From: Anaerolineae bacterium
GTDB taxonomy: Bacteria > Chloroflexota > Anaerolineae > Anaerolineales > Villigracilaceae
Length of the DNA: 7,501 bases
Assembly: GCA_017303735.1 (NCBI GenBank)
Contig: JAFLCF010000197.1
Location: 1 to 7,501, forward strand
Reading direction: 5' to 3'
Shown piece by piece: positions 1 through 7,501 of this stretch. Each line of letters begins with the position of its first letter. Position 1 is the stretch's first letter. Under the pieces are notes generated by a model that saw nothing but the letters and a program-made list of their open reading frames with translations, was not told where the DNA came from and made no database searches. A program made the translations under genes and the position numbers.

Positions 1-2
1 CC

Positions 3-131
3 AGCCAACAAAGCGTGCACCTGACGTGTGGGATTCTGCGGCATTTTCGAGCATTTTTCTGGCTTCGAGTTTTCTCTGCTCCCAAACAGAATCCACGCCC
101 GCCCACACGCAGGTAACGCAAGCCGTTAGCC
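3..131 (+). repeat. attC-like imperfect inverted repeat, copy 1
   Basis: This is a roughly 129-base inverted repeat with the layout of an integron attC site. The outer core is AGCCAAC (3-9) against GTTAGCC (125-131). The inner boxes are GCGT (13-16) with ACGC (116-119) and ACCTG (19-23) with CAGGT (110-114). GC on one arm faces a single A on the other, leaving an extrahelical base. The stem continues with CGTGTGGG (25-32) against CCCACACG (102-109), leaving A24 unpaired, and with GGATTCTG (31-38, sharing two bases with the previous arm) against CAGAATCC (87-94). The centre (39-86) differs from copies 2 and 3 but shares a ttttctggct block with them. The first gene starts 40 bases after it. The core differs from the classical GTTRRRY consensus at one position, so the attC assignment is inferred from architecture. 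An unrelated interspersed hairpin family is the alternative. Confidence 0.65.
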
Positions 132-171
132 CGTTCGTGCAAAACCATGTTTCGAATTCAGAAGGGATAAG

Positions 172-921
172 ATGAATACAAAAAAGTGGTGGTTGCTAGT
201 TTTTGCTGTGGCTTTGCTTCCATTAACTTCTTGCGGCAGGGTCTCAAGTGAGTCTGTTCCCACTCAACGAGTCCTGACACAAACGCCTTACCCTACTTAC
301 ACGCCGTATCCGACCAACACACCCTATCCCACATACACACCTTTCGTTCCCAGTTTTCCAACAACGCTTACCATTGATGAATTCCAAAAAACATTCGTAA
401 TTTACTTTCCTGGCAATTATGTTTTATCCAAAAGAGGCGAAACTTATAGCGGGGGCTCGCCTGCCGCTTATGATTTTGTTCAAGTGGGAGAGTTTCTGAA
501 ACCAGAACATCCCTACTTCAAATCACAACCACCATATTTCGATAGAATTCAGTTTCATACGTTAGAGTCCCTTCAATCCTTTTATGAATGGTGCGACCAA
601 CAAGCACTCCAACCATTAGGATTTCCCTGTTTCCAGAACGGCGACCCAGATCTTATCAACAAGTATCATGGGCAAAAGAAAGCCTTTGAAAACCGTGAAA
701 ATTACGAAGACTATACAATTCAAAAGTTTGGAGAGCGTTTTTATTTTACAAACGTAGTCGGTTGCGGAGGTGGATTTTGTGAATTCAGGGAATATACTAC
801 TTTCTTAGGTGACGTAAAAGTTGTAATCCTCATGTTACTCTATCCAAACCAGACCGAAGTGCAAAGCGAACTCAGTGACAAGTTGTTTTTGTCTTTTTAT
901 ATTGAGGAAGTTTCTGAATAA
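172..921 (+). CDS. Secreted lipoprotein with TPYPTx linker, function unknown
   Basis: A 249-residue protein of unrecognised function. A lysine-containing N-terminus, a hydrophobic stretch (residues 6-18) and the lipobox LTSC with Cys21 predict a type II signal peptide, so the mature protein is probably lipid-anchored and extracytoplasmic. Residues 38-58 are a Thr/Pro/Tyr linker of three TPYPTx hexads, a spacer style I associate with Anaerolineae surface lipoproteins. Residues from about 60 to 249 form one probable globular domain with four cysteines, including C198 and C203 in a Gly-rich CGGGFC motif that might form a disulfide. I recognise no catalytic motif. The ATG start is supported by GAAGGG at 161-166, five bases upstream. 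The gene begins 40 bases after attC-like copy 1 and stops 8 bases before copy 2, so it fills a predicted cassette. The coding call is confident; the role is unknown. Confidence 0.85.
   Translation: MNTKKWWLLVFAVALLPLTSCGRVSSESVPTQRVLTQTPYPTYTPYPTNTPYPTYTPFVPSFPTTLTIDEFQKTFVIYFPGNYVLSKRGETYSGGSPAAYDFVQVGEFLKPEHPYFKSQPPYFDRIQFHTLESLQSFYEWCDQQALQPLGFPCFQNGDPDLINKYHGQKKAFENRENYEDYTIQKFGERFYFTNVVGCGGGFCEFREYTTFLGDVKVVILMLLYPNQTEVQSELSDKLFLSFYIEEVSE
283..336 (+). repeat. Three 18-base in-frame tandem repeats encoding TPYPTx hexads
   Basis: Three consecutive 18-base units encode TPYPTY, TPYPTN and TPYPTY, and a partial unit (TPF) follows. The units differ at several third codon positions, so this is an old or selected protein repeat rather than a fresh slippage product. 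It makes an extended linker between the lipid-anchored Cys21 and the C-terminal domain of the lipoprotein. Confidence 0.85.
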
Positions 922-929
922 CAAAAACG

Positions 930-1061
930 GGCTAACAAAGCGTGCACCTGACGCTGGGGATTCTGCGCACATCCCAAGCAGTTTTCTACGCCTTATCATT
1001 TTTCTGGCTGGACGGCTTCGCCCGGTCCACGAGACGGGGCAGGTAACGCAATCCGTTCGGC
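930..1061 (+). repeat. attC-like imperfect inverted repeat, copy 2
   Basis: The outer core is GGCTAAC (930-936) and GTTCGGC (1055-1061). The inner boxes are GCGT (940-943) with ACGC (1046-1049) and ACCTG (946-950) with CAGGT (1040-1044), with the same GC-versus-A asymmetry as copy 1. The centre holds two hairpins: GGGAT (957-961) with ATCCC (971-975), and TGGAC (1009-1013) with GTCCA (1025-1029) around GGC-TTC-GCC. It matches copy 3 (2076-2207) at about 113 of 132 positions by hand count, without gaps. The lipoprotein gene stops 8 bases before it and the next gene starts 28 bases after it. Short open frames through this element are not credible genes, because the same GC-rich stems recur in non-homologous gene contexts. 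Confidence 0.7.
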
Positions 1062-2201
1062 GGCTTGGCAAAATAAAGGGAATATCATTATGAAAAATGA
1101 AAAATACTTCTATGAAAAAATAGTTTTTCTGCCCAAAATCCCACATTGGCTTTTTAGTGTTTTGTTAAGCGCTATTAGTTTTTATTTATCCCAAATTCTA
1201 GTAACAATCGACGGACAAAATTCTGATAATTTACTCATACCAAGAATACTTATTTCTGCCTATGCTTGCGTTGTCCCAGTTGTCTTAACGTGGGGGTTTT
1301 ACAATTTTCAAAAATCAGCCATTAAATTTATTGATTTTCTCCCCGAAAAAGACCATTTGGAATTCAGGCAATGGATAAGCACTAGAGCGCAAAGAATTTT
1401 TTCATTTCAATCTTGGTTAGTTAGGCTAGTTGTTTTTGCGGGGATGGTGGGAGCGTTATTCACAGTTTTCTATAATGGTTTTATTTTTTCAACAACTACA
1501 CTAAATTTAATTGCTGTTGCTGGAACAATTGTGACTTCATTTCTTGCTTGTCATGCCGCCTATATTTTAATTGACTTGATGGTTACAGCATATGACTTAA
1601 CGAATTGGCACTTCAAAATGCCCTTTTATCATTCTTCGCAACCAACAATATCAGAACTTTACAACTACTTTATGATAATAGTATTTTGGACGATAGTGGG
1701 TTACATTTTACTTGTTGGATCTATGTGGTTGATCCCTTCTCTTCAAACTCGATTTATTGGATGGATAACTATTGCAACATTTTATCCATTAGCATTATTT
1801 ATATGGACATTGCTCCAATTCCATGCCATCTTAGTTAATACTAAAAGACAAAACATGGAAATAATTGGAAAAGAGATTGAAATTGCATTATCGGAATTGC
1901 AAACAAGTAAGAAAAAAGAGTCTATTGAACGCTTGGAAAAATTAATGAGTGTTCAAGAGAACCTCAGAAAAATGAGCGAGTGGTCATTTTCTGTGCAAGG
2001 TTTTTTCACTTTTTTGTTATCATCTGGTTTGGCAATCGTACAAACAGTAATCTCAATATTGCGCCCGTAAAATGCGTCCAACACAGTATGCACCTGACGC
2101 TGGAGAGTCTGCGCACATCTCAAGCAGTTTTCTACGCCTTAGCTTTTTTCTGGCTGGACGGCTTCGCCCGGTCCACGAGGGAGGGCGGAAAATGCAAACC
2201 G
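1056..2201 (+). mobile_element. Predicted integron-type gene cassette 2 (membrane protein gene plus attC-like site)
   Basis: By the same G/TT junction rule this 1146-base unit is the second cassette. Its far core GTCCAAC (2076-2082) pairs with the core built from its own start (GTTCGGC, 1055-1061) at 6 of 7 positions counting one G-T wobble. It pairs with the core now beside it (GTTGGGC, 2201-2207) at 7 of 7 with one wobble. The circularisation signature is therefore much weaker than in cassette 1, and assignment rests mainly on gene-plus-repeat organisation. Confidence 0.45.
1090..2070 (+). CDS. Polytopic membrane protein with C-terminal coiled coil, function unknown
   Basis: A 326-residue integral membrane protein I cannot assign to a named family. 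Hydrophobic segments lie at about 19-37, 49-71, 108-130, 138-165, 193-215 and 222-246. A charged, probably coiled-coil stretch follows (about 250-297, rich in Lys and Glu), then a last hydrophobic segment at 300-323. There is no N-terminal signal peptide, ABC motif or transporter signature. The layout matches that of the next gene (2277-3479), including a His just before the fifth membrane segment (H181 here, H223 there), so the two may be distant relatives. AAAGGG at 1075-1080 lies nine bases before the ATG and supports the start. It is AT-rich compared with the downstream backbone genes, and it stops five bases before attC-like copy 3, as a cassette gene would. Confidence 0.85.
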   Translation: MKNEKYFYEKIVFLPKIPHWLFSVLLSAISFYLSQILVTIDGQNSDNLLIPRILISAYACVVPVVLTWGFYNFQKSAIKFIDFLPEKDHLEFRQWISTRAQRIFSFQSWLVRLVVFAGMVGALFTVFYNGFIFSTTTLNLIAVAGTIVTSFLACHAAYILIDLMVTAYDLTNWHFKMPFYHSSQPTISELYNYFMIIVFWTIVGYILLVGSMWLIPSLQTRFIGWITIATFYPLALFIWTLLQFHAILVNTKRQNMEIIGKEIEIALSELQTSKKKESIERLEKLMSVQENLRKMSEWSFSVQGFFTFLLSSGLAIVQTVISILRP

Positions 2202-2207
2202 TTGGGC
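2076..2207 (+). repeat. attC-like imperfect inverted repeat, copy 3
   Basis: The outer core is GTCCAAC (2076-2082) and GTTGGGC (2201-2207). This copy alone fits the classical RYYYAAC / GTTRRRY consensus on both sides. Compared with copy 2, GCGT has become GTAT (2086-2089) and its partner ACGC has become ATGC (2192-2195), so pairing is kept through one compensatory change and one G-T wobble. The small hairpin also keeps a pair by a double change (2104 A with 2120 T). The ACCTG box is intact (2092-2096), but its partner has decayed to CGGAA (2186-2190), with two mismatches and a wobble. The central TGGAC..GTCCA hairpin is identical to copy 2. The decayed box may make this the weakest recombination site of the three. 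Confidence 0.7.
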
Positions 2208-3479
2208 GTTTGTATTGCAAAATTATCTTTTCTCTTAATGCTTAAGTTTCTTGGTAAGTTCAAGATTGGAGAATAAGTGAACAAAAAATTTAAGGATAGA
2301 AATAATCAAAAACCAAAGCAACATCCAAAAGATGTTACAGAGATCGAATTGGTGTTGGATAATTTCAAAATAATCCAATCAAAACCTCTAAGGTTTTTAT
2401 TTAACAGTGCACTTATTTTAACAACGGTAATTGTCGTGTTTTTTATCTTCAATTCATGGTACACCAAAGCACCTGTTGAGGCTTTGTATGTTAGTGGCGG
2501 GATTGTGCTTATACTTTATCTATTACTCGCGAACGAATTATTTGAAAAATTTCCTCAAACAATTAAAATCTTGTGGAGAAGAAATTTACTTTGTCAATTT
2601 GACGAAAATTCTCTAAAAACAGGAATGCCGTCTCAAGAAGAATCTGTATTGAAGTTTCTCCAGGATACTCGAATATACGTAGATAGCAAAAATGGTATTT
2701 TTTGTGGTTTTGCGGGACTTTTCATCAGCGCATGGCTTGTTTGGTTGCTTGACCAAAATTGGATTTTAAATGCCCCTAGCTATATTGTTTCAATGCCAGC
2801 ACCATTAATAATCACGCTTTTTCTTAGGACGGCATTTATTTTTTCCTGCTTTATTTGTGGAATAGTTGCTTGGCATATTTTCAGCGTGGGGAAAACAATA
2901 TCCGCCCTAGGAAGAATTTTTAGGCTAGACATAAAAATCAACCATCCTGACGGCTGCGGAGGATTAAGCCCCATAGGAGATTTGTGTCTAAAACTAGTCT
3001 ATTGTGTTGCGCCTTTTCTAATACTTATTGGTGCATGGCTTATTTTCGTAAACATACTAGATATTAGTTATTTGCATATGCAATCAACTAACCTCAATAG
3101 CCTGATTTCTACTCTGCAAATATTGTTACTTCCCTTCACAATGTTGAGTTTTCTAATTTTCTTCTTTCCAATAATATCAATACGAAATTCAATGTTACAC
3201 GCTAAATCGTTACTAGATATTCAATTAGATGCCATTAGTCAAAAAATTCATTCAATCGAAATGGATCTATTAACGCAGGCAGACAGTTTACCAACTGATA
3301 GACGAATAATTCTTGAGGAAGATATTGATTTTCTCAAACGCTCATATGGTCGTTTTCAGCCTATCCCCACCTGGCCATTTAGATTTAGTCATCTATTTCG
3401 TCTTACGACATCTCAAATCATTCCCTTTATCGGAGTGACAACTTCACTTATGTCGTTTATTAAAGACATAACAAAATAA
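2202..3479 (+). mobile_element. Possible terminal cassette 3 without a 3' attC-like site
   Basis: This unit begins at the GTT core of copy 3 and carries one gene, but no fourth repeat follows. Between the stop codon and the terminator at 3589 I find neither the GCGTGCACCTG block nor a reverse complement of the core at 2201-2207. It may be the end of the array with the 3' site lost, or a chromosomal gene against which the array ends. The end coordinate is simply the gene's stop. Confidence 0.3.
2277..3479 (+). CDS. Polytopic membrane protein with HPDGCGGL motif, function unknown
   Basis: A 400-residue integral membrane protein. After a charged, Lys/Gln-rich cytoplasmic-type N-terminus (1-38) come hydrophobic segments at about 40-60, 68-86, 140-158, 178-202, 238-260 and 277-300. 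A charged helical stretch (about 305-358) follows, then a PIPTWPF motif (362-368) and a last hydrophobic segment (about 378-396). The motif HPDGCGGLSPIGD (223-235) precedes the fifth segment. I recall similar HPD-x-x-GGL motifs in uncharacterised bacterial membrane proteins but cannot name the family. The start is GTG, supported by GGAG at 2268-2271 five bases upstream; an in-frame TAA directly before the GTG rules out a longer protein. It is strongly AT-rich. It shares topology with the preceding cassette gene, suggesting a divergent pair. The His, Asp and Cys of the motif could bind a metal, which is speculation. Confidence 0.85.
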   Translation: MNKKFKDRNNQKPKQHPKDVTEIELVLDNFKIIQSKPLRFLFNSALILTTVIVVFFIFNSWYTKAPVEALYVSGGIVLILYLLLANELFEKFPQTIKILWRRNLLCQFDENSLKTGMPSQEESVLKFLQDTRIYVDSKNGIFCGFAGLFISAWLVWLLDQNWILNAPSYIVSMPAPLIITLFLRTAFIFSCFICGIVAWHIFSVGKTISALGRIFRLDIKINHPDGCGGLSPIGDLCLKLVYCVAPFLILIGAWLIFVNILDISYLHMQSTNLNSLISTLQILLLPFTMLSFLIFFFPIISIRNSMLHAKSLLDIQLDAISQKIHSIEMDLLTQADSLPTDRRIILEEDIDFLKRSYGRFQPIPTWPFRFSHLFRLTTSQIIPFIGVTTSLMSFIKDITK

Positions 3480-3588
3480 AATATTTAGTGTAATAATTTG
3501 GGTATTCGCTATAGTTCAAAGTGTGCGAAGTAGATTTCTCGAATTGGCTTTAACATCTTCTTTTAGTTTAACAAGCCTATCACAACAA

Positions 3589-3620
3589 AAAACGCCTCTT
3601 GCAAGGCGTTTTCTTTTTTA
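3589..3620. terminator. Two-way intrinsic terminator between the array and malQ
   Basis: A nine-pair stem is formed by AAAACGCCT (3589-3597) and AGGCGTTTT (3604-3612) with loop CTTGCA. On the + strand it is followed by a T-rich run to 3619. On the - strand it is followed by the complement of the A run at 3587-3592, so it can act both ways. It overlaps the region just after the malQ stop codon and lies about 110 bases after the last + strand gene. Its position suits insulation of the convergent storage operon and cassette array. Confidence 0.85.
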
Positions 3621-5123
3621 TCTCAAAGTCATCCAATTCAGTTCGCGCAGCCCAGCCGCCAGGTCTTCGCGGAAGTCCGCTTCAGACATGCGCCATTCCC
3701 AGTTTCCGCCAAGCCTGCTGGGAAAGTTCATGCGAGCCTCTCCGCCCAAGCCAAGCACATCTTGCATGGGAGCTACTGCAAATATCGCCACAGACTTCCA
3801 CACGGTGCGGATCAAGTCCCAGGCGAAATCATGTCCATCCACGCGGAGGTAGCGGCGGGCGAAATCTTTTTCCACATCAGGGGCGCTGGCGTACCAGCCC
3901 ATGGCAGTGTCATTATCATGCGTGCCTGTGTAAGCCACACAGTTCGGCACATAGTTATGCGGCAAAAATGGATTGTCGGGTCCGGTAAACGCGAACTGCA
4001 AGACCTTCATGCCGGGCAGGTCAAATGCGGCGAGCAGTTCGATTACATCAGGGGTGATGAGACCCAGGTCTTCAGCGACGATGGGCAACCCCGTGCCAGG
4101 GACGATGACACCATTCCCAAGATCGGCATCAATGGCGCGGAATAAGTCCGCGCCGGGACCGGGCACCCAATGACCATGCTCCGCAGTGGTATGCGTGGCA
4201 GGGATCTCATAATACCCCGCAAAGCCACGGAAGTGGTCAAAGCGCAAAATATCCACAGTCTGCAACACGGCGCGCACACGAGAAAGCCACCAGGCATAGC
4301 CATCTTTCTTGTGAATCTTCCAGTTATAGAGCGGGTTACCCCACAACTGTCCCGTTGTTGAGAAAAGATCCGGTGGAACGCCTGCTACAACAGTGGGATT
4401 CCCCCCCTCATCCAAATGGAAGAGTTTGGGGTTTGCCCACACATCCGCAGAGTCATACGCGACGAAGATGGGAATATCGCCCATGATCTGAATGCCTTTT
4501 TCATTGGCATACTTGCGCAGCTTGGTCCACTGGCGGAAGAAAAGGAATTGATAGAAGGAATACCGTTCGATCTCGACAGCCAATTCTTTTTTGGCTTTGT
4601 TCAACGCGGATTTTTTACGAGAGCGCAAGTCTGCACTCCAACCATTCCACGCACCGCCACCGTTGGCTTCTTTGAGCGCCATAAAAAGTGCAAAGTCATC
4701 GAGCCAGCTTGCGTTTTCGGCGCAGAAATAATTGAAGGCATCACGCAAGGGCTCGGGGTTGGTTTGGAAGCGCTGAAACGCTATCAGCAGAAGATCCAGC
4801 TTCTTCGGGATGAACAAGCCAAAGTCCACTTTTGAGGCGGGCAGTTCTTTTAATCCAGCAAGGTCTGCTTCAGTCACCAATCCATCTGCCAGCAAATCAT
4901 CGGGGCTGATCAGATAGGGATTCCCTGCGAAGGCAGAAAAACATTGATAGGGCGAGTCACCATAGCCCGTAGGACCAAGCGGCAGGATCTGCCAAATTTT
5001 ACAACCGGTCGATGCGAGCCAATCGACAAAACGATGGGCTTGCGGACCAATATCGCCAATGCCATACGAACCCGGCAAACTTGTGGGATGAAGAAGAATT
5101 CCTGAAGAACGTTTGAATGCCAT
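3618..5123 (-). CDS. malQ: 4-alpha-glucanotransferase (amylomaltase, GH77)
   Basis: This enzyme transfers segments of alpha-1,4-glucan between chains (disproportionation), releasing glucose, in cytoplasmic glycogen and maltodextrin metabolism. The 501-residue product shows family GH77 signatures throughout. It has the N-terminal SGILLHPTSLPG block (7-18) and LGPTGYGDSPYQ (49-60). It also has GDIPIFVAYDSADVWANP (215-232), the nucleophile Asp296 in RFDHFRG, the acid/base Glu351 in AEDLG and Asp403 in GTHDND. Length is usual for bacterial MalQ. I place the start at 5123 (MAFKRSSG), not at an in-frame ATG 45 bases earlier. AAGGTGA lies two bases upstream of the chosen ATG, the conserved domain begins there, and the longer version would start inside a strong intergenic hairpin. 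It is the last gene of a probable ppk2-glgA-malQ operon, 57 bases after glgA, and ends at a terminator. Confidence 0.95.
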   Translation of the reverse strand: MAFKRSSGILLHPTSLPGSYGIGDIGPQAHRFVDWLASTGCKIWQILPLGPTGYGDSPYQCFSAFAGNPYLISPDDLLADGLVTEADLAGLKELPASKVDFGLFIPKKLDLLLIAFQRFQTNPEPLRDAFNYFCAENASWLDDFALFMALKEANGGGAWNGWSADLRSRKKSALNKAKKELAVEIERYSFYQFLFFRQWTKLRKYANEKGIQIMGDIPIFVAYDSADVWANPKLFHLDEGGNPTVVAGVPPDLFSTTGQLWGNPLYNWKIHKKDGYAWWLSRVRAVLQTVDILRFDHFRGFAGYYEIPATHTTAEHGHWVPGPGADLFRAIDADLGNGVIVPGTGLPIVAEDLGLITPDVIELLAAFDLPGMKVLQFAFTGPDNPFLPHNYVPNCVAYTGTHDNDTAMGWYASAPDVEKDFARRYLRVDGHDFAWDLIRTVWKSVAIFAVAPMQDVLGLGGEARMNFPSRLGGNWEWRMSEADFREDLAAGLRELNWMTLR

Positions 5124-5141
5124 AGTCACCTTAATTTTATT

Positions 5142-5172
5142 GCTCGTGCAGAGGCTAAGCCCCTGCACGAGC
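5142..5172. promoter_or_regulatory. Strong intercistronic hairpin between glgA and malQ
   Basis: GCTCGTGCAG (5142-5151) and CTGCACGAGC (5163-5172) form a perfect ten-pair stem. A GGC/GCC inner stem follows after one mismatch, capped by a three-base loop. In the direction of the operon it is followed by AATAAAATTAA rather than a T run, so it is not an ordinary terminator for glgA. On the + strand it is followed by a T-rich stretch. It lies 18 bases before the malQ start on the - strand and could protect upstream mRNA or tune malQ expression; the role is inferred. Confidence 0.7.
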
Positions 5173-5180
5173 GAGTATTT

Positions 5181-6602
5181 TTATTTCACCAACGATTGAT
5201 AGAGTTTTAAATATTCACGCGCCGAGGCTTCCCATGAAAAATCTTTCGCCATACCATTGCGTTGCAGCGCTTCCCACTTCTCACGATTCGGCAAAACCTT
5301 CATCGCCGCCTTGATCGCGCTGACAAGCGACATATGATGCGATTTCTCAAAAACAAATCCGGTTTCATTTGGGATCACTGTATCTTTCAGCCCGCCCACC
5401 GAACGAACAATGGGAATACAACCATAACGCATCGCGATCATCTGCGCGAGACCACAAGGCTCATACCGCGACGGCATGAGGATCATATCAGCACCCGCAT
5501 AAATTTGACGGGCAAGTGCCGCATCGAATCTTAACTCGGCTTTGATCTTATCTGGGTAAAGAGTTTGCAACTCTCGAGCCGACTCTTCCAACTTGGGGTC
5601 GCCCGTACCAAGAATGACCGCCTGAAAATCAATGCGCTTCATATTCTTGAGCGCAGTGAAGGCAAGGTCTACGCCTTTTTGAACATCCATGCGCGAGATG
5701 ACAGCCAACAATGGAATATTCGGGTTGCGGGCAAGCCCGAGTTTTTCTTGCAATAGTTCTTTATTTTCAGCACGGCGCTTAAGCGTCGGCAAATTGAAAT
5801 TGACACTAATCGATTTATCGGTGGCAGGGTCGAAGGAGACAGTGTCGATGCCGTTCAAGATGCCGCTCAAAGTCTCTTTACGCACCCCTATGAATTCCTG
5901 CAGTCCACAACCAAATTCTTCGGTAAGGACTTCACCTGCATATCCCGGCGAGACGGCTACGATCGCATCAGACGCCCACAATCCCAGCGGCAACGGCAAG
6001 ACGCGTGCCCACTCGGGCAGGTCCGTTTGTGCAAGTTTAATTCCATAACTCTCGAGAATGGCAGAAACGTCTGCCCCCATGAAAGGCAGGTTGTGTAAGG
6101 AAAGTACACCTGCCACATGCTTGGAACCCGACTCCCAACGCTTGGTTAGGTTGATATATAAACTGAGCGCCGTGTGCCAGTCATTGGCATGGATCACATC
6201 GGGCTGCCAGTTGATATGCTTTGGTAATTCCATGGCTGCCAGCGAAAAGAACGCATATTTATCTGCATCTTTGGTCGCATCCAACGAATAGACCGAGCCA
6301 TTCGCACGGATGGGCTCTCCGCCAATGAAGTAAACCGGCATGCCATTCAAGGTAGTCTCAAAGGCTTCCACTGCCACTTCAGAATCGCCGCGTGGGATCG
6401 AAAATATCTCCACCGGGCGAAGATTCTCCGCTTTTACCGCCGGGTGATACGGCAACACCAGCCGCACATCCAGTTTTAGTTCTTCATTCGAAAGGGCGCG
6501 AAGTTCTCGCGGCAAAACCCCAGAAACATCCCCCAACCCGCCAACCTTGATAAATGGGTCGGCTTCGGCAGCGAGGAATAAGACATTAATTGTTCTAGAC
6601 AT
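5181..6602 (-). CDS. glgA: Glycogen synthase (GT5)
   Basis: Glycogen synthase adds glucose from a nucleotide sugar, usually ADP-glucose, to the non-reducing end of alpha-1,4-glucan chains in the cytoplasm. The 473-residue product is full length for GlgA and shows both GT-B halves. The N-terminal half has KVGGLGDV (19-26, the substrate-binding KxGGL motif), DVIHANDWHT (135-144) and LHNLPFMG (169-176). The hinge has GILNGID (247-253). The C-terminal half has ISRMDVQKG (302-310), then PSRYEPCGLAQMIAMRYG (377-394) with the conserved catalytic-region Glu381, and GGLKDTV (403-409). The C-terminal WEASAREYLKLY tail is typical. The ATG at 6602 is the only reasonable start before the KxGGL motif. Its ribosome site (AAGGTG near 6617-6622) is about 13 bases away, rather far, which may mean modest translation. 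It lies 28 bases after ppk2 and 57 before malQ, in one probable operon. Confidence 0.96.
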   Translation of the reverse strand: MSRTINVLFLAAEADPFIKVGGLGDVSGVLPRELRALSNEELKLDVRLVLPYHPAVKAENLRPVEIFSIPRGDSEVAVEAFETTLNGMPVYFIGGEPIRANGSVYSLDATKDADKYAFFSLAAMELPKHINWQPDVIHANDWHTALSLYINLTKRWESGSKHVAGVLSLHNLPFMGADVSAILESYGIKLAQTDLPEWARVLPLPLGLWASDAIVAVSPGYAGEVLTEEFGCGLQEFIGVRKETLSGILNGIDTVSFDPATDKSISVNFNLPTLKRRAENKELLQEKLGLARNPNIPLLAVISRMDVQKGVDLAFTALKNMKRIDFQAVILGTGDPKLEESARELQTLYPDKIKAELRFDAALARQIYAGADMILMPSRYEPCGLAQMIAMRYGCIPIVRSVGGLKDTVIPNETGFVFEKSHHMSLVSAIKAAMKVLPNREKWEALQRNGMAKDFSWEASAREYLKLYQSLVK

Positions 6603-6630
6603 AAGGGCTATTTTACACCTTTCGGAAGCC

Positions 6631-7434
6631 TTATTCGATCACAACCCCGCTCAGATCGTCCTTTGGTTTGAAGAATTTCATATTCAAGCCTTCCAAGGTC
6701 TCAACCAGCACTTTTGAGATCACCAGGTCACGATACCATTTGCGGTCCGCTGGCACTACAATCCAGGGTGCATGTTCGGTGCTGGTCTTGTTCAAGGCAT
6801 CTTCATAAGCTGCCTGATAGTCATCCCATAATTTGCGTTCGGCGAGGTCACCTACGCTGAACTTCCAATGCTTAGACGGGTCATCCAGCCGGGCTTGCAG
6901 GCGTTCTTTTTGCTCGCCTTTGCTGATATGCAGGAAAAACTTCAAAATGGTAGTGCCATTCTCTGCCAATAATTTTTCAAACGCATTGATCTGCTCATAA
7001 CGCTTTGACCAGACCTCTTTTGGCACATAGTTATGCACTCGCACCACCAGCACATCTTCGTAATGGCTGCGATTAAAGATGACCAACTCGCCGCTGGCTG
7101 GCGCAACTTTATGAACTCGCCATAAATAATCATGCGCCATTTCCTCAGCAGTCGGCACTTTGAAACTCGCCACCTTCACGCCCTGCGGGTTGACGCCGTC
7201 AAACACCCGCCGAATCGCACCGTCTTTGCCACCTGTATCCATGGCTTGCAAAACGACCAGCACTTTATGCTTCCCTTCGGCATAAAGCAGTTCCTGAAGT
7301 TCCTGCAGTTTTTCATTTAACTTGGCAATTTCTTTTAGCCCATCTTCCTTACCGCCCTTGAACTTGCCTGTATCCTGCGGGTCTATGTCTGCCAGTTTGA
7401 TCTTCTTACCAGGTTCAACAAAATGGTGTTTCAT
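6631..7434 (-). CDS. ppk2: Polyphosphate:nucleotide phosphotransferase, PPK2 family
   Basis: PPK2 enzymes move phosphate between inorganic polyphosphate and nucleotides, here probably making ADP or ATP in the cytoplasm. The 267-residue single-domain product has the Walker A motif DTGGKDG (66-72) followed by GVNPQG (80-85). It has a Walker B-type block ELVIFNRSHYEDV (116-128) and the lid region RLDDPSKHWKFSVGDLAER (182-200). A conserved C-terminal VPADRKWYRDLVISKVL block spans 227-243. The GVNPQG form and ~265-residue length resemble the PPK2 subgroup often called class III, whose characterised members act on both AMP and ADP; substrate choice here is inferred. The ATG at 7434 has a near-perfect ribosome site (GGAGG, 7439-7443) four bases upstream. 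It is the first gene of the ppk2-glgA-malQ run. Confidence 0.95.
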   Translation of the reverse strand: MKHHFVEPGKKIKLADIDPQDTGKFKGGKEDGLKEIAKLNEKLQELQELLYAEGKHKVLVVLQAMDTGGKDGAIRRVFDGVNPQGVKVASFKVPTAEEMAHDYLWRVHKVAPASGELVIFNRSHYEDVLVVRVHNYVPKEVWSKRYEQINAFEKLLAENGTTILKFFLHISKGEQKERLQARLDDPSKHWKFSVGDLAERKLWDDYQAAYEDALNKTSTEHAPWIVVPADRKWYRDLVISKVLVETLEGLNMKFFKPKDDLSGVVIE

Positions 7435-7438
7435 GAGA

Positions 7439-7443
7439 CCTCC
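7439..7443 (-). promoter_or_regulatory. Strong ribosome binding site of ppk2
   Basis: The - strand reads CGGAGGTCTCATG, with GGAGG four bases before the start codon. It is the strongest Shine-Dalgarno match in the window and fixes the ppk2 start. The same CGGAGG hexamer also occurs in the hairpin arm just upstream. Confidence 0.85.
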
Positions 7444-7453
7444 GGGATTTTAT

Positions 7454-7484
7454 AAAACCTCCGAGCGTATTCTCGGAGGTTTTT
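7454..7484. terminator. Terminator-like hairpin upstream of ppk2
   Basis: AAAACCTCCGAG (7454-7465) and CTCGGAGGTTTT (7472-7483) form a 12-pair stem with loop CGTATT. A T run follows on both strands (TTTTT to 7484 on +, TTTTAT on -). It can end a gene lying to the right of the window on the - strand, or act as a two-way terminator. Only about 20 bases separate it from the ppk2 start, leaving little room for a promoter. ppk2 may therefore depend on read-through, or on a promoter beyond the edge with this hairpin acting in the leader. Confidence 0.75.
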
Positions 7485-7501
7485 GATTGGGAGCCTGATG
7501 G

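Follow-up and report, generated by a model that had tools for sequence, protein, structure and literature searches.

In the present study, we analyzed a 7,501-nucleotide (nt) stretch of DNA from an Anaerolineae bacterium (contig JAFLCF010000197.1 of assembly GCA_017303735.1), the whole of which is referred to as the window, and in which three copies of a repeat alternate with three genes. Judged from this sequence and those of related genomes, the repeats are very probably attC sites, and the window the distal, partly decayed end of an integron cassette array in an Anaerolineales-like (Chloroflexota) chromosome. The alternation of three repeats with three single genes on the same strand, which the initial annotation of this DNA had described, was confirmed; the repeats are direct copies of 121-124 nt each, and the open reading frames (ORFs) at 172-921, 1090-2070, and 2277-3479 are all on the plus strand. 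The features of the window are as follows.

1..134, plus strand: attC copy 1, AAC-GTT span 7-127 (AAC 7-9, GTT 125-127), with the R'' flank and 7 bases past GTT; intact.
128..933, plus strand: body of cassette 1, with an orphan gene for a lipoprotein-like protein of 249 amino acids (aa) at 172-921 (ORF1), without a Pfam match.
927..1064, plus strand: attC copy 2, AAC-GTT span 934-1057 (AAC at 934, GTT at 1057); outer stem partly broken.
1058..2079, plus strand: body of cassette 2, with an orphan gene for a membrane-protein-like product of 326 aa at 1090-2070 (ORF2).
2073..2210, plus strand: attC copy 3, AAC-GTT span 2080-2203 (AAC at 2080, GTT at 2203); the most decayed copy and the final site of the array.
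2277..3479, plus strand: ORF3, membrane-protein-like, 400 aa; in a cassette position, without an attC after it.
3584..7501, minus strand: chromosomal flank, with malQ (3618-5168), glgA (5181-6602), and ppk2 (6631-7434).

Support for attC sites comes from the junctions between neighboring copies. In a cassette that was once a circle, the first and last bases should pair with each other, rather than the two flanks of one copy. We compared the bases after the GTT of copy n with those before the AAC of copy n+1, and the complementary run across 188 neighboring pairs averaged 6.30 nt, as opposed to 1.69 nt within copies (271 copies) and 1.52 ± 0.14 nt for shuffled partners (maximum of 1000 shuffles, 2.01). 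In the window, the ends of cassette 1 match perfectly: GTTAGCCCGT (125-134) is the exact reverse complement of ACGGGCTAAC (927-936), 10 bases including GTT. The gene content of the intervals points in the same direction, with the longest ORF on the array strand in 179 of the 186 cassettes (opposite strand in six, no ORF of 50 codons in one), a median cassette length of 748, and a median ORF share of 0.87.

Regarding the structure of the repeat, a loose two-ended scan of at least 118 loci together with the window yielded 281 elements, 237 of which were 121-123 bases long. Sites of 119-125 nt with no more than four mismatches per end numbered 235 of the 281, from which 45 were chosen for diversity, and the resulting alignment (A2) holds 47 sites, 44 from relatives and the three window copies. 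Across these 47 sites, 96.9% of the cells were paired and 143 cells had changed on both sides, neither value being reached in any of 500 shuffles, and pairing fell to 26-37% when the partner was shifted by 1-3 columns. The covarying helices occupy alignment columns 1-3/129-131 and 7-27/105-123. Variants of the family differ in the sequence of the inner stem with the pairing kept. Both the AAC (R'') and GTT (R') cores are present in all 47 aligned sites, which were found by these cores; an unpaired spacer separates the R and L parts, and the R''-side arm carries two extra bases, which by eye are a T and a G of the bottom strand at a distance of 6 nt. According to the part of PMC2727003 that was available (this partial coverage applies to all papers cited here by PubMed Central number), attC sites have an unpaired central spacer, and two or three extrahelical bases with a conserved G and, 6 to 8 nt from this G, a T. 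Four relatives, folded as the top strand only, gave z values of -3.5 to -4.5. We also considered 10-nt extended R arms as a new feature and rejected this idea: in the class of G180, the arrays at several loci have runs of 5 to 9 nt (each locus being counted on both strands), and R arms longer than 7 nt are no novelty because 9-11 complementary nt are given in the available part of PMC2727003.

The 20-base left motif, which was derived from the window copies themselves, occurs three times in the window and in none of 200 shuffles, and the AAC and GTT outer cores reported earlier are present in all three copies. Inner boxes had been ascribed to each repeat; those of copies 1 and 2 are whole and those of copy 3 broken, and breaks also affect the outer stem of copies 2 and 3, with mismatched pairs in copy 3. 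Our covariance model R1, whose training set of 47 sites includes all three window copies, scored them at 126.5, 89.8, and 73.6 bits. The core-site consensus is RYYYAAC/GTTRRRY, and copies 1 and 2 each depart from it by one base, the departures being matched across cassette 1, in agreement with the earlier remark that the cores differ from the consensus. The genes end close to the repeats: the stop codons lie 12 nt (ORF1) and 9 nt (ORF2) upstream of AAC, a few bases short of the R'' box, and the three ORFs start 45, 33, and 74 nt past the end of GTT. No fourth attC was found past ORF3, where the next R1 match had 6.3 bits (E about 1); ORF3 is therefore not a complete cassette here. Rfam gave no match at the gathering score. 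As to clusters of attC sites lacking integron-integrases (CALINs), defined by two or more attC with less than 4 kb between them and no intI nearby, the window has three attC in 2.2 kb and no intI in 7501 bases, and the contig ends at copy 1.

The left motif was found in at least 118 loci of genome contigs, the majority of which are labelled Anaerolineales, Anaerolineae, Chloroflexi, or Chloroflexota, and the minority of which are metagenome-assembled genomes (MAGs) and isolates under other labels. When the covariance model was applied to relatives, it matched at E<=1e-8 in at least 42 of 151 genomes from the order to which the Chloroflexota genome G015 belongs, against two of 100 genomes in the phylum of G177 (labelled Rhodococcus); the counts over the 151 genomes are lower bounds because 23 candidates per genome were scored under strict filters. 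The suggestion of a Chloroflexota lineage with an attC family of its own was thus supported. Ten further genomes with pattern hits, mostly under other labels, had R1 matches at E<=1e-5 in six cases (G180-G185) and none in four (G176-G179). MAGs labelled as other phyla also carried the left motif (L019, L028, L033, L040, L055, L070, L073, L086, L090, L101, L102, and L114), and these copies may reflect either mis-binned contigs or transferred cassettes. Fifteen IMG/VR contigs (L176-L190), which may be either phage or mis-assigned host DNA, contained the attC motif, all 15 with R1 matches, and three of them (L184, L186, and L189) held dense arrays with sites spaced about 200-850 bases apart. A spread of this attC type into sequenced plasmids was unsupported, two attC variants having no blastn match there at E<=0.01.

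An IntI-type recombinase, the search for which had been proposed earlier, was found in relatives that carry the repeat. We scanned 29 of the at least 118 loci (28 genomes) and called IntI above the NCBI curated cut-off of TIGR02249; 15 of the 28 repeat-bearing genomes had such a protein in comparison with none of 14 control genomes, while weaker tyrosine recombinases were present in all 28 and all 14. The presence of IntI in these genomes and the strand bias of the cassette ORFs run counter to the two outcomes that the initial annotation had named as favoring an ordinary repeat, namely, no IntI in any genome with the repeat and no link to gene ends. Residues 9-319 of the IntI of L120 align with V. 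cholerae IntI (2a3v) at E 2e-91. Among genomes with R1 matches at E<=1e-25, 11 of 15 had IntI (p 0.002). In an IntI tree, which was built from the 45 of 54 loci that had an open frame of 250 aa or more containing the required motif and took in 12 of the 15 attC genomes with IntI (G012, G015, and G016 were left out), 11 of these 12 formed one clade (Shimodaira-Hasegawa-like approximate likelihood ratio test support of 99) with the integrases of G113 and G150, both strong R1 matches. The intI of G015 (G015:C2:2318167-2319109) is split over two frames, and G015 has the most attC matches (54).

The layout beside intI was of the standard kind. In 11 of 14 searched loci, an R1 site lay in the stretch beside intI, and the nearest array was on the opposite strand to intI, that is, head-to-head, in all 11. 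The attI crossover, a single GTT followed by 6-7 bases complementary to the first attC flank, was found in 10 of these 11 loci, at a distance of 139 to 226 nt from where the intI match ends. In a second set, seven of 20 more intI loci had an R1 site and five of the seven passed the crossover test, at 168 to 653 nt. The first cassette thereby predicted the attI crossover to the base in 15 of 18 loci. The three that failed were L164, L174, and L153, in which intI is in two frames and the first site is degenerate; L175, whose spacing equals that of L130, may be a near-copy of that locus. By eye, eight of the ten attI sites of the first set have in common the palindromes TTATACAG..CTGTATAA, or variants of these, flanking a CCCCAATTTGGGG-like stretch, with ..TAGTT as their last bases, and the attI sites of other integrase branches differ from this palindrome type. 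At L152 (4918-5002), the palindromes TTATACAG..CTGTATAA lie between a TATAAT box and the crossover. Such palindromes could be operators or IntI-binding repeats.

Similar attI sites also occur apart from intI. The palindrome pattern matched 19 places in seven of ten genomes, and its reversed control none; two of these places (L282 and L286) have no family attC within 9.5-10 kb. An attI model (R2) made from 12 sequences, five of which came from places without intI, had hits at E<=1e-5 in 13 of 34 genomes, amounting to 28 distinct places (33 rows, five of them opposite-strand duplicates), nine adjoining intI and 19 not, and none in 39 genomes of the phylum of G177. We inspected these 19 places and G013:C12 (R2 E 8e-5). 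A family attC follows in 17 of the 20 (L281, L283, L284, L285, L288-L290, L321-L327, and L329-L331), and in all 17 the bases past the attI GTT match the first attC flank over 6-8 nt, a match that was not built into the model because R2 ends at GTT. For the other three places, L328, L332, and L287 (which lies at a contig end), no attC was within reach. No intI was detected by tblastn in the inspected stretches, of which L321 has only about 400 bases to the contig end. A TATAAT box lies 89-148 nt upstream of GTT in 14 of the 17 intI-less sites and all nine intI-linked ones, as compared with 1.1% of random 90-base stretches from the same loci. Eleven of the 17 arrays are in genomes with IntI above the cut-off elsewhere (four in G001, two in G020, and one each in G007, G013, G021, G024, and G113) and six in genomes without a detected IntI (three in G004, two in G011, and one in G010), whose IntI may be missing from the MAGs or truly absent.

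Two origins of the intI-less attI sites may be considered. The intI-linked and other attI copies are 96% identical over 127 nt in G113 and 90% identical over 141 nt in G001, and this near-identity within genomes speaks for a recent copying of the promoter-attI piece. At L283, a stretch near 4630-4686, upstream of attI, resembles the 5' end of intI and is likely a relic, which speaks for the loss of intI there. Both processes may occur. Further tblastn matches taken for IntI relics near attI in L281, L290, and L323 were discarded because the first residues of the query are the translated attI region upstream of the start. Ten genes scanned near intI-less attI sites encode a Clp ATPase, two methyltransferases, a PrsW protease, a class IV aminotransferase, a LytR-type protein, a phosphodiesterase, an epimerase, an EamA transporter, and a CpXC protein.

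Concerning the genomic position of the window array, the window MalQ is 91% identical to that of G011 (record UWPOB_ANAER1) and 83% identical to those of G015, G016, and G018. The malQ-glgA-ppk2 flank DNA is 84% identical in G011, where similarity stops at window base 3584, and it stops at 3614-3619 in four other genomes; 80.8 kb around the related flanks contained no R1 match at E<=0.01. On the same malQ side of G011, beyond two genes absent from the window, stretches resembling attC relics were recognized by eye (L245, minus strand, near 12807-12720, 12005-11935, and 11405), one of which was also found by blastn (window 1000-1043) and none by R1. Because of these stretches and the weak last sites (89.8 and 73.6 versus 126.5 bits), the window probably represents the old end of an array whose counterpart at this locus in a sister lineage has decayed. 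The tail appears to be decaying, since copies 2 and 3 are weak and no attC stands behind ORF3; cassette 1 alone is likely still a mobile unit.

The proposed mechanism combines what the relatives display with established integron biology. The sequences of the relatives show the parts: sites between single-gene cassettes, complementary R boxes at the cassette ends, a covarying stem, IntI, a TATAAT resembling a promoter in attI, and intI placed head-to-head with arrays. By analogy with known integrons, the bottom strand of attC would fold as a hairpin whose R''-L'' arm has unpaired bases, IntI would cut R' at G/TT, cassettes would exit as circles and re-enter at attI, and IntI may be able to act in trans.

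Several results weigh against regarding the window as the end of an integron array. Neither intI nor an R2 match was found within its 7501 bases. The ends of cassette 2 (copy 2 to copy 3) match at only five of seven positions. The self-folding of the repeats was likewise borne out for copy 1 (z -2.28 on the bottom strand and -2.40 on the top strand) but not for copies 2 and 3, which folded no better than shuffles on either strand (z -0.2 to 0.7). Thirteen of the 28 repeat-bearing genomes had no IntI above the cut-off, many MAGs are fragmentary, and attC and IntI co-occurred in 21 of the 151 genomes where 15 were expected (Fisher p 0.02). In G045, intI has a stop in its frame and shares its strand with the closest attC. 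Outside the main IntI clade are the integrases of L119 (G023), L213 (G031), and L219 (G164), whose genomes have strong R1 matches, and those of G051, G092, G111, G146, and G162, with weaker ones; this attC type is therefore shared by more than one integrase branch. As for the missing integrase, the initial annotation was correct that none is in view in the window, but the window is very likely the whole contig (no contig listed for its own proteins exceeds 7501), which begins six bases before the AAC of copy 1, and the absence of intI therefore says little. This absence can be due to the contig end or to the class of attI-headed arrays without intI.

That the window array is the tail of an ordinary complete integron, with intI and attI to the left of the contig end, is a serious possibility, although we would not rate it as the probable one: the contig starts at an attC and 11 loci with intI and this attC type are arranged head-to-head in the standard manner, whereas intI-less attI places outnumber intI-linked ones by 19 to 9 in the genomes examined, and because of these numbers an array without intI is at least as likely. 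A dead fossil, namely, a cluster of cassettes with eroding sites and an integrase lost long ago, is conceivable but somewhat doubtful. R1 scores drop toward the malQ end (126, 90, and 74 bits), no attC lies behind ORF3, and the nearest relative, G011, has only by-eye relics beside malQ, without R1 support, and no IntI above the cut-off; on the other hand, copy 1 is intact, the ends of cassette 1 match over 10 nt, and G011 has two attI-headed arrays with intact junctions (L326 and L327). An ordinary interspersed repeat family (REP- or MITE-like, that is, similar to repetitive extragenic palindromes or miniature inverted-repeat transposable elements) lying between genes by chance would fit the 3 to 54 copies per genome (E<=0.001, 128 candidates scored in each), some of them alone, and the sharing of the repeat between species, but is most improbable given the complementarity specific to neighboring copies, the ORFs on the array strand, and the IntI and attI at array heads, and was rejected on the junction test because such repeats need not match across a gene yet not within a copy.

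Returning to the integron array, a further and rather unlikely extension of it is a distributed integron, in which one chromosomal IntI would serve several scattered promoter-attI platforms in trans, each platform heading its own cassette array beside a chromosomal gene, with the window array as one of them. The available parts of PMC12444791 and PMC9668308 describe CALIN cassettes as mobilizable in trans, and IntI may act in trans on the intI-less attI sites. This extension is weakened because six of the 17 attI-headed arrays are in genomes without a detected IntI. If it is true, integrase-less arrays in this lineage would be working outposts, not fossils. The attI-headed arrays without intI make a long-standing question testable, namely, whether arrays lacking an integrase are fossils or receive cassettes in trans through an integrase elsewhere in the genome.

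Integrons in Chloroflexota are already known: intI was reported in Chloroflexi (PMC2426708), IntI with about 60% similarity to those of Chloroflexi and other phyla was described (PMC9176274), and Chloroflexota appear in lists of phyla (PMC8618304; PMC9668308). The closest parallel is the chromosomal integron of Vibrio cholerae, with its VCR (Vibrio cholerae repeat) attC sites and a homologous IntI, which shares a long conserved attC family, AAC/GTT cores, an unpaired spacer, and two unpaired bases on the R''-L'' arm (attC features in the available part of PMC2727003). It differs in phylum, attC sequence, and attI, and the Anaerolineales arrays are found at several loci. The Xanthomonas ilvD integron and CALINs (PMC12444791) also comprise intI-less arrays at several chromosomal loci besides one intI locus, with platform decay, and the conserved CALIN positions were taken there as support for ancestral integron activity, in contrast with attG insertions; attI is unmentioned at the CALIN heads in the available part of that paper, whereas 17 intI-less arrays here have an attI and an exact junction. 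CALINs in MAGs and attI adjoining intI were described for archaeal and other MAG integrons (PMC9668308), the available text of which names Chloroflexota merely within a list of integron-bearing phyla. Taxon-specific covariance models (PMC8352920) likewise showed attC to be conserved within a taxon, but none of the 11 taxa modelled belongs to Chloroflexota, a name that is absent from the text. The sul4 module (PMC12772301) has integron integrase genes in all intact contexts and the Chloroflexota MAG DSWT01 among its hosts; it concerns resistance and is no chromosomal array of cassettes with an attC family of its own. Within the available parts of the open-licence literature searched, we found no description of the Anaerolineales attC family, its attI, or attI-headed arrays without intI. 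The window by itself belongs to a kind already known, and the system around it, in which promoter-attI sites are numerous away from intI, is a variant of that kind.

Integrons are mostly known from Gammaproteobacteria, to which 93% of complete integrons belong according to the available part of the IntegronFinder 2 paper (PMC9024848). IntI above the cut-off was present in 54 of the 151 genomes of the order of G015, a share similar to the 57 of 143 in the class of G180 (a MAG labelled Methylococcales), and the idea of an unusually high IntI share in this order was thus unsupported. The attC model R1 provides a means of tracing cassettes from an Anaerolineales-type source.

Regarding the cargo, we scanned 125 proteins, 122 of 181 deduplicated cassette proteins and the three window proteins. 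Among the matches listed, DUF4145 (four), methyltransferase domains, and TIR domains (two) were the most frequent in Pfam, and mad2 (four) and DNA methyltransferases in PADLOC. The three array proteins of the window had no Pfam match and, in PADLOC, nothing other than one hit at E 0.03. ORF2 has two known homologues besides itself and is not related to ORF3 by BLASTP, such a kinship having been considered and dropped. ORF3 has 34 homologues (35 proteins including itself) with 33-100% identity; in attC genomes, the count was two of 34, both distant. ORF3 belongs to an uncharacterized membrane-type family of about 400 aa and carries the conserved motif INHPDGCGGL, the longer form INHPDGCGGLxPIGDLCLKL being common to the four relatives that were read.

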